Below, in pieces: positions 47,149 through 49,663 of a stretch of 64,000 bases of DNA. The notes below the pieces were generated by a model. It ran no database searches. It was not told the origin of the DNA and was given only the letters and a program-made list of their open reading frames with translations. The translations under genes were made by a program, and so were the position numbers. The stretch covers positions 594,818 through 658,817 of the forward strand of contig NZ_CAMTTF010000001.1 in NCBI RefSeq assembly GCF_947077765.1, written 5' to 3'. The DNA comes from Salinibacter grassmerensis. GTDB lineage: Bacteria; Bacteroidota; Rhodothermia; Rhodothermales; Salinibacteraceae. Every line of letters begins with the position of its first letter. Within the stretch, counting starts at the first letter, position 1.

Positions 47149-47799
47149 CTACAGTGTACGGATGAGGCCCAGCACGCGGCCGATGACGTAGTAGTCGGAA
47201 TCCGTCGGTGAGAACGTTTCTTCGGCGTAGTGGGGGGCGGTGGGACGAAGGTGAATCTTTCGGTTGGCGAACTCGAACTCGCGCGCCAGCAACTGGTCTT
47301 GGAGGAGAACGGCCACCAGGGTCCTGTTGTCCAGGTCGTCCCACTCCATCTCTTCAACTAGCAAGAGGTCCCCCTTCTGGACGCCCGTCTCGGTCATTCC
47401 ATCGTCGCCGGCCCGCCCAAGAAGACAGTCGTCGGGCGTTCGGGCATTGCGCAGGAGTTGGTAATCGACGGACAGGGTGCCGGCGGGCCGCTCCCGGAGC
47501 CGCTCCGGGTGGTCGCTGGGCGTGCGGCTCACGATGGGAAGGTTCGGAGGGCCTCCGCCCCGCCCGAGCGGGTCCTGCTCCTGCTCCGCAAGCTGGATGC
47601 TCCGGGCCTTGTGCTTCTCGCGCTCGATCCAGCCCTTCTCCTCAAGCTTCTGGAGAAGCTTGTAGACGCCATTCGTCGACGCGATGTCCAGGGCGTCCCC
47701 AATCTCCTGAAGGGTGGGGGGCTTCCGGTGGCGGTCGAGGTACTGCTCGATAAAGTCGTACGCCTGATTCTGGCGTTGGGTAAGGGGGGCCTTGCTCAT
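47149..47799 (-). CDS. lexA: LexA-family repressor lacking autocleavage residues
   Basis: 216 aa from the ATG at 47799. The N-terminal winged helix is LexA-like: MSKAPLTQRQNQAYDFIEQY, then PPTLQEIGDALDIAS and a recognition region STNGVYKLLQKLEEKGWIERE. The C-terminal domain aligns across LPIVSRTPSDHP, RAGDDGMTETGVQKGDLLLVEE, LVAVLLQDQLLAREF and VIGRVLGLIR. The residues needed for SOS self-cleavage are all changed: S95-D96 stands where the Ala-Gly scissile bond should be, G134 replaces the catalytic serine, and A172 replaces the catalytic lysine. It therefore should not cleave itself with RecA. It is divergent from the dcw cluster. Confidence 0.85.
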   Translation of the reverse strand: MSKAPLTQRQNQAYDFIEQYLDRHRKPPTLQEIGDALDIASTNGVYKLLQKLEEKGWIEREKHKARSIQLAEQEQDPLGRGGGPPNLPIVSRTPSDHPERLRERPAGTLSVDYQLLRNARTPDDCLLGRAGDDGMTETGVQKGDLLLVEEMEWDDLDNRTLVAVLLQDQLLAREFEFANRKIHLRPTAPHYAEETFSPTDSDYYVIGRVLGLIRTL

Positions 47800-47912
47800 G
47801 AGAGCGAGAAGAGCTGGGGGGACGGGCGGAGAGCGTGCGGGGCGTGCAGGAATGTCATCGCGAGGGACTGCAAACATATGTGCGCCCGCCCCGGCGGGGC
47901 AAGAAAAAAGAG

Positions 47913-47949
47913 GTGAAAATATTTTCTTTAGTGGGTGAAAATGTTTTCA
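47913..47949. promoter_or_regulatory. Paired AT-rich palindromic operators
   Basis: Two near-identical sites, GTGAAAATATTTTC (47913-47926) and GTGAAAATGTTTTCA (47935-47949). Each is palindromic around its centre, and the centres (47920.5 and 47942.5) are 22 bp apart, two helical turns on the same face. They lie just upstream of the putative lexA -35 on the minus strand. A dimeric repressor, most simply the LexA-like protein itself, is the likely binder; this is inference. Confidence 0.6.
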
Positions 47950-47952
47950 TTA

Positions 47953-47968: not shown

Positions 47969-48051
47969 GAGTTGGTCCGCATTTCCACATGTGCGGGCGG
48001 CTCAGTCGAGGGAAAACGGGGGCGATAATCGCCTTTTGGCGCCGCTGAGCC

Positions 48052-48079: not shown

Positions 48080-48080
48080 G

Positions 48081-48114
48081 TGGGGCGCGTGGGGAAATGT
48101 GGGGAACCGTCCCA
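48081..48114 (+). promoter_or_regulatory. MraZ operator: repeated TGGGG boxes
   Basis: TGGGG occurs at 48081-48085, 48090-48094 and 48100-48104, and its inverted form TCCCA at 48110-48114, spaced 9-10 bp apart. E. coli MraZ binds TGGGN repeats with a 10-bp period upstream of mraZ, so this is very probably the autoregulatory site. Confidence 0.75.
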
Positions 48115-48180: not shown

Positions 48181-48618
48181 ATGGCGTTCAAAGGACAGGC
48201 TGAATATTCCGTCGATAGCAAGGGCCGGGTCGCCATCCCGGCCAAGATGCGGAAGTCCTTGTCGCCCGCCGCGAATGAGACGTTTACCGTTACGCGGGGG
48301 TTCGAAGACTGCATTTTCCTCTACCCGATGGACGAATGGGCTGATATTGAGGAGGAGATCGACGAGCTGAACATGTACGACCGAGAGGTTCGAAATTTCG
48401 TGCGCCTCATCATGCGATGGGCCAACGAGGTATCCCTCGACGGACAGGGGCGCATCAGCATCCCGAACTCGCTGATCGATTTTGCCGGGCTCGACGATTC
48501 GGCCCTCATTCTGGGGGCGTTCGACCACATTGAGATCTGGGACCCGGGGCAGTTCGACGGGTACCTCAACGAGCAGACCAACGACTACGAAACGCTTGCC
48601 GAGAGCGTTATGAGGTAG
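48181..48618 (+). CDS. mraZ: Transcriptional regulator MraZ
   Basis: 145-aa DNA-binding protein with two AbrB-like halves, the first gene of the dcw cluster. The first half reads [20 protein letters not shown], with the DSKGR motif; the second repeats it as [19 protein letters not shown]. MraZ forms rings and represses the cluster. The start ATG lies about 67 bp after the last operator box. Residue [15 protein letters not shown] is the family hallmark. Confidence 0.97.
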
Positions 48619-48652: not shown

Positions 48653-49663
48653 ATGTCAGACGACGATTCTCAGAACGATTCTGCTCCGGCGGGGAACCCT
48701 CGCCGGTACGCGACTGACTTTCACGCACCTGTTCTTTCACACGACGTACAGGCCCGACTCGTCACCGACGCGTCCGGTTGCTACGTAGACGCGACCCTCG
48801 GTGGGGGAGGGCACACCCGCGCCCTGCTCGACGTGCTCGGCCCCGACGGATTTGTCCTCGGCATCGACCGGGACCCGGAGGCGTTGGGCACGGCCCGTGA
48901 CCGCCTCGCCGACGAACGCGACGGGGAGCGCTTCCAGGCAGTGCATGGCACCTTTGGAAATCTGCGGGATGTGCTGGCGGCCGAGGACCTCATTCCCATC
49001 GATGGGCTGCTGCTGGACCTCGGTGTCTCGTCCCATCAGATCGACGCCCCCGAGCGGGGCTTCAGCTTCCGGGAGGAGGGCCCGCTCGACATGCGGATGG
49101 ATCCGCAGCGTGGTCTCACCGCGCAGCAAATCGTGAACGACTGGGGCGAGCGTGACCTGCGCGATGTACTCCGCGAGTACGGGGAAGAATCGCGGGCGAG
49201 ACAAATTGCCCGGGCCCTCTGCGACGCCCGCCCGCTCAGCACGACGCGGGCCCTGGCGGAGGTCGTGGAGGGCTGCGTGCCGCCCCCCGACACGGTCAAG
49301 ACCCTAACCCGCGTCTTCCAGGCGCTCCGCATCGCGGTGAACGCCGAGCTCGACGAGTTGGAGACTGTGCTGGAGCAGGCCACGGAGGTGGTCCGCACGG
49401 GGGGGCGCATCGCGGCAATCAGCTATCACTCGCTGGAGGACCGGCGGGTGAAGCGATATCTCCGCTACGGCAACTTTGAGGGCAAGCCGCGCCGCGACCT
49501 GTATGGCACCCTCGTGGCGCCCTGGGCCGAGACGCCCCGCGGTCCCATCGAGGCCGATGATTCGGAGGTGGAGGCCAACCCCCGAGCACGGAGCGCGCAC
49601 CTCCGGGTGGCCGAGCGACGGGACGACGATGAGGCCGGGTCTCCGGTCCCGCCGCTCTCGTGA
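48653..49663 (+). CDS. rsmH: 16S rRNA (cytosine(1402)-N(4))-methyltransferase
   Basis: SAM-dependent rRNA methylase formerly called MraW, 336 aa. Motifs: [16 protein letters not shown] for SAM binding, [38 protein letters not shown], and [17 protein letters not shown] near the end. It starts 34 bp after mraZ. Confidence 0.97.

Follow-up and report, generated by a model that had tools for sequence, protein, structure and literature searches.

In some bacteria, LexA ties the division genes to the SOS response. The locus analyzed here raises the question of what a LexA-like protein does when it is encoded beside the division genes and has lost the residues for self-cleavage. The window, i.e. the whole 64,000-nucleotide stretch of Salinibacter grassmerensis DNA that was analyzed, holds the following genes at this place:

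47149..47799, minus strand: LexA-like gene without cleavage determinants (216 amino acids plus stop; Ser95-Asp96, Gly134, Arg173)
48181..48618, plus strand: mraZ, divergent from the LexA-like gene and first gene of the dcw cluster
48653..49663, plus strand: rsmH (mraW), a conserved neighbour used in the synteny test

In the product of the 216-residue open reading frame, LexA_DNA_bind (PF01726) was detected at 62.1 bits (cut-off 23.7) and Peptidase_S24 (PF00717) at 38.9 bits (cut-off 23.3). With both domains above their curated cut-offs, the protein is a LexA homologue by domain content. Against the equivalog model TIGR00498 (transcriptional repressor LexA) it scored 97.2 bits, which is below the cut-off of 110.95. 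The AlphaFold2 model has a mean pLDDT of 86.3 and a pTM of 0.60, and its best structural match is the LexA structure 3k2z (Foldseek E-value 6.1e-16; Z 17.2; rmsd 7.1 over 189 residues). The modeled protein has the LexA fold. The two domains and this match bear out the initial annotation, which had stated that the winged helix and the C-terminal fold are kept. The stretch 47149-47799 is a real gene, and it encodes a LexA paralogue with a winged helix and an S24 domain.

The cleavage residues were compared by alignment with E. coli LexA. The scissile pair Ala84-Gly85 corresponds to Ser95-Asp96 and the catalytic Ser119 to Gly134, both as initially annotated. HMMER and MAFFT agree in aligning Lys156 with Arg173, and the Arg173 column is invariant across 19 aligned orthologues; the annotated loss of the catalytic Lys is upheld, and its assigned position, Ala172, was one residue off. 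The protein has neither the Ala-Gly scissile bond nor the Ser-Lys dyad of a self-cleaving SOS LexA. The same replacements are found in all 25 other aligned orthologues (L004-L028; the labels L, G and f stand for locus, genome and family), and the SGxSM position holds GDDGM or a close variant in the orthologues. No neighbouring residue that replaces Ser or Lys was seen in the aligned orthologues. Compensation by neighbours was rejected: residue 136 is unconserved and no Lys adjoins Arg173, and the loss stands. In four orthologue pairs, dN was 0.03-0.10 and dS was 0.36-0.86 (dN/dS about 0.07-0.12). Because all 25 orthologues share the replacements and dN is low against dS, the replacements are more than chance. 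As predicted from these residues, the LexA-like protein is unable to cut itself, so it should be deaf to RecA.

A cleavable-looking lexA was found elsewhere in the genome. This second, canonical gene lies on contig C3, carries ISAGT, SGQSM and SLKR, and its product scores 111.8 bits against the TIGR00498 cut-off of 110.95. The LexA-like protein resembles canonical LexA (E. coli; TIGR00498) in its full-length winged helix and S24 fold and in the palindromic operators near its own gene. In contrast to canonical LexA, it has no Ala-Gly, Ser or Lys, falls below the TIGR00498 cut-off and coexists with a canonical lexA. By eye, a TGTG-N7-TGTG-like direct repeat was seen upstream of canonical lexA (L149-L163) and of several recA genes (e.g. 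L249 and L250), and it may be the SOS box of the order. Between the LexA-like gene and the MraZ-box-like repeats, exact copies of this element on either strand occur at two of 47 loci (L015 and L029), and SOS control by the LexA-like protein was rejected on this count. Two recA genes are present in G000 (C3:46065-46850 and C6:104633-105415; L252 and L254).

The distribution of the gene was then determined. An orthologue at 136 bits or more is present in 26 of 41 genomes (the own genome and 40 relatives), and 34 of 78 order genomes of at least 90% completeness score at least 140 bits. The f5 genomes G028, G071 and G073 have a diverged copy at the same place. The pattern [GAL][RP]AGDDGM[NAS], which is narrow and gives no census, matched 18 loci in one genome each of 84,980 species; the titles of these loci name Salinivenus, Roseithermus, Rhodothermus, Rhodothermaceae, Rhodothermales, Rhodothermia or Bacteroidetes. 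LexA-like proteins of this type are also found beyond the order, in families f34, f36, f40, f53, f31 and f52 of the same phylum. The 296-genome search was inspected at chosen places only, and repeats of one genome among L063-L080 were counted once, except L074.

Among 75 hand-chosen rows, 36 have Ala-Gly, Ser and Lys together. Arg stands at the Lys156 position in 39 of the 75, and none of these 39 has Ala-Gly; their Ser position holds Gly in 30, Ala in five, Ser in three (L167, L182 and L193) and Thr in one. The 39 Arg rows lie on one side of one branch with an SH-aLRT of 99, in an unrooted tree made by a quick method with the trait columns omitted and with Arg and Lys rows picked after looking. 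The tree omits near-copies (L150, L151, L159, L160, L163 and others), L023 with an in-frame stop, L164, and later loci such as L272. Judged by sequence, the Arg-type LexA paralogues are one old, deep lineage. G033 has, besides an mraZ-linked dead paralogue, the canonical-type LexA L164, from which Ala-Gly, Ser and Lys are likewise missing. Determinant loss is not confined to the Arg-type lineage, because L164 has lost all three too.

Linkage to the division cluster is conserved. The LexA-like gene is divergent from mraZ and rsmH at all 31 order loci L081-L111, and from rsmH at 24 of the 26 loci L003-L028. The two exceptions are L012, from G018, which carries the gene at a different place, and L026, the extra copy of G024, a genome that also has an mraZ-linked copy. 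In G004 the gene is seemingly absent, but the contig stops about 230 bp upstream of mraZ. Outside the order, L112, L113, L116, L118, L119, L120, L165, L167, L168, L169 and L171 are mraZ-linked. Five relatives (L172, L178, L179, L184 and L185) are not linked to mraZ within about 1.9 kb, and their mraZ is on other contigs or, in G338, about 60 kb away. Co-occurrence with mraZ was discarded as uninformative, since 75 of the 78 order genomes have mraZ. No mraZ was found in G005, G014 and G015, or in the less complete G002, G008 and G021, and the LexA-like gene is absent there too.

Two candidate operators lie in the divergent region:

47912..47929, plus strand: operator 1, GGTGAAAATATTTTCTTT, a candidate palindrome
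47934..47951, plus strand: operator 2, GGTGAAAATGTTTTCATT, a candidate palindrome 22 bp from operator 1

The order consensus of the palindromes is GGTGAAAATATTTTCACC, i.e. GGTGAA-N6-TTCACC. The pair is present at 35 of 41 order loci; three loci have a single site (L021, L028 and L111), and by the same measure no site was found at three (L012, L026 and L029). The start-to-start spacing of the 35 pairs is 22 bp in seven, 31 in two, 32 in 18, 33 in two, 41 in three and 54 in three. The sites were scored with a PWM trained on the positive loci, without L012, L026, L029 and six loci of other classes, and eight of the 37 mraZ loci were scored by position. In the 19 mraZ upstream regions from genomes with the gene (f5 aside), both sites score 14.2-30.3 bits. 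The 13 mraZ upstream regions (600 bp) from genomes without it reach no more than 6.3 bits; G004 (244 bp) and G034 (136 bp), for which shorter stretches were scored, are outside this count. By this score, the operator pair is absent at the mraZ promoters scored without the gene. When the own genus group was omitted from the PWM, first sites scored 10.6-30.0 bits and second sites 4.3-25.8 bits, the second sites falling to 4.3-9.0 bits in L007, L008, L028, L110 and L111. The f5 type scored 12.4 bits in G072 and 7.4 bits in G028.

Related pairs occur in other classes. The f40/f53 pair is ACTGAACA-N2/3-TGTTCAGT or close, 33-34 bp apart at six of six loci, and L171 (f36) has ACTGAAAATATATTCAGT and CTGAAAATATTTTCAG about 41 apart. 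The core common to the order and the other classes is TGAA-N6/7-TTCA. No such pair was seen at the mraZ-linked or diverged loci L113, L118, L165, L167, L182, L193, L194, L029 and L181; because these nine show no pair, the operator is not shared by the whole lineage. One GTGTA-type palindrome each is found at L193 and L194. In many order loci the pair is flanked by ACATATGTG- and CACATGTG-like elements, which in the window lie at about 47873-47882 and 47986-47993.

Further targets were searched genome-wide. With at most two mismatches, GGTGAAAANNTTTTCACC occurs at 54 places in the 41 genomes, 31 of them at the mraZ locus (two in G018). Of the 23 non-locus places, 10 fall in the 26 genomes that carry the gene and 13 in the 15 that lack it, which gives no sign of a wider regulon. 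The loose pattern GTGAANANNTNTTCAC (two mismatches) matched 63 places in the own genome versus 28 for the control, and weaker targets are possible because of this difference; the best of 15 fetched non-locus places scored 14.9 bits versus 21.8 and 23.5 bits at the locus. The exact pattern TGAACA-N2/3-TGTTCA occurs 15 times in the six f40/f53 genomes, eight of them at the locus, with two occurrences of the control pattern; G163 holds five of the seven non-locus copies. Unlike that of canonical LexA, the operator was found mainly at mraZ and was not seen at recA in the pattern search of 41 genomes, the recA upstream regions (13 of 14 genomes) having been read for another motif only.

The position of the pair was compared with the promoter elements on both sides:

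47873..47902, minus strand: weak candidate promoter of the LexA-like gene, TTGCCC-18-TATGTT, from a hexamer scan that picked a like promoter only in L003-L009
48052..48079, plus strand: mraZ promoter, TTGACA-16-TACATT, with the first base of the -10 box 131 bp from the operator 2 centre
48080..48104, plus strand: three GTGGGG repeats after the mraZ -10 box, read from the sequence

Outside L003-L009, the hexamer scan settled on no single promoter for the LexA-like gene. The GTGGGG repeats are taken by us to resemble MraZ boxes. In the window, the operators precede the expected mraZ start by about 143 and 165 bp. Most families have 129-133 bp between the operator 2 centre and the first base of the mraZ -10 box; the others have 104-113, 121-124, 141-142 or 154 bp. 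Phasing at 10.5 bp was evaluated over the distinct distances of 21 rows, which are genera (two split by hand) plus L074, with L018 included. The Monte-Carlo p was 0.002 for operator 2 to the mraZ -10 box, 0.0008 for operator 1 and 0.0005 for the pair spacing; periods of 9.5-11 fit about equally, and relatedness among the genera makes these p values optimistic. From operator 1 to the ATG of the LexA-like gene, no phasing was found (p 0.90). We read this helical phasing as tying the operators to the mraZ promoter.

On this sequence evidence, the protein is probably a RecA-deaf regulator that acts at essentially a single location, the divergent region separating its gene from the mraZ-dcw cluster, and it is probably autoregulated and dimeric. 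We infer that it binds the operator pair as a dimer, stays whole in cells and has mraZ as a target. An uncleavable LexA paralogue would be a permanent DNA-binding regulator. Two dimers would sit on the two palindromes, whole helical turns apart and always on the same side of the helix with respect to the mraZ promoter. The bound dimers would tune the division cluster and, most likely, their own gene, and the protein would act alongside MraZ, for which the box-like GTGGGG repeats lie after the mraZ -10 box. The initial annotation had proposed a stable, uncleavable DNA-binding regulator of the adjoining division genes. That proposal agrees with the missing Ser/Lys substitute, the conserved mraZ linkage and the phased operator pair, at least at the sequence level. 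Because the operators leave the mraZ promoter uncovered, we tend to favour autorepression combined with modulation of mraZ from an upstream position; with the pair off that promoter, activation or looping is no less likely than repression. A fuller account, that of a RecA-deaf governor of the division cluster, is offered tentatively. In it, an old LexA-mraZ link was freed from DNA damage when Arg replaced Lys, the former protease domain dimerises or senses another signal, and the protein acts on mraZ by way of phased twin operators.

Alternatively, the protein may repress its own gene only, with mraZ as a mere neighbour and the operators staying put as the compact divergent region rarely changes. 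This is somewhat unlikely. It agrees with operator 1, whose start is 36-147 bp from the own start codon in order loci (G016 aside) and which lies near or over promoter-like hexamers in many of them, and with operator 2, which never covers the mraZ promoter. However, the distances to the mraZ -10 box are phased and those to the own ATG are not, the ATG being a poor stand-in for the real promoter. Three genomes also speak against it. In G018, a MAG in which misassembly is possible, the gene adjoins pyrG on a different contig, where no operator was found in its vicinity, and an operator pair (23.2 and 23.0 bits) is upstream of mraZ. The gene of G345 (f52), the only LexA-like match found in that genome, is unlinked, and ACTGAACATTTGTTCAGT is upstream of mraZ; this is the one of the five unlinked genomes with a site at mraZ. 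The G016 gene, with its in-frame TGA, is 514 bp from the operators, which keep their usual place at mraZ.

Regulation of the divergent region, as favoured above, could also be held by a ligand or partner, with the former protease domain sensing a signal at Asp132-Asp133/Arg173 and switching mraZ, which we consider unlikely. Four residues (Asp132, Met135, Arg173 and Tyr191) do not vary in any of 16 rows from different families, a degree of conservation beyond that needed in a disused active site; against this, the invariant columns may serve folding or dimerisation. Any signal site in this domain would be sought at the conserved Asp132 and Arg173. It is improbable that the palindromes belong to another regulator and that the LexA-like protein acts elsewhere. 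ATATGTG-like elements do flank the pair, but among the scored mraZ upstream regions the pair accompanies the gene, and the palindromes are a LexA type of site. The N2 version of f40/f53 also contains GAAC-N4-GTTC, which we take to be the Gram-positive LexA box. A functionless, decaying LexA copy is hardly credible, since the lost catalysis and the stop codon of G016 are set against the low dN/dS of the four pairs, the invariant columns and the kept synteny.

The probable mraZ regulator was compared with known systems, which are described here from parts of the cited papers. The LexA of Synechocystis is uncleavable, has neither Ala-Gly nor the catalytic Ser and is not an SOS switch (PMC3091678, PMC7567884). 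The LexA-like protein likewise has LexA domains without Ala-Gly or the catalytic Ser, a likeness of kind only; Synechocystis LexA is described as regulating many genes, whereas the present protein is a paralogue with Arg for Lys and an operator pair at one place, mraZ. LexA sites at mraZ were described in gut Gram-positives, with EMSA using B. subtilis LexA (PMC3998124), and the E. coli dcw 5' region is said to have LexA boxes (PMC3265435). As proposed here, a LexA protein acts at the mraZ promoter in those bacteria, but those sites belong to a cleavable SOS repressor, in contrast to the dedicated cleavage-dead paralogue encoded next door here. The non-canonical LexA of Bacteroidetes is also an S24-domain regulator of the same wide bacterial group, and is defined by a CI-type penta-helical HTH, all cleavage residues and SOS-gene control (PMC8565304); the present protein has instead the LexA winged helix and has lost the cleavage residues. 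MraZ is likewise a regulator at the dcw promoter, but it belongs to an unrelated protein family and uses direct-repeat sites (PMC8475190). A dedicated cleavage-dead LexA paralogue at mraZ was not reported in the literature searched, mostly without subscription papers and preprints. The initial description as an undescribed system is tempered, since uncleavable LexA and LexA sites at mraZ are already in print.

Across the whole lineage, a LexA has apparently been uncoupled from DNA damage signalling and put to use at the dcw promoter. A 'lexA' adjoining mraZ ought not to be labelled the SOS repressor, and the setting of division-gene output in Rhodothermales and kin becomes testable. The two copies in G024 are of different placement: L272 is the mraZ-linked copy, and the unlinked second copy (L273, on C7) is of the SDDGM type.
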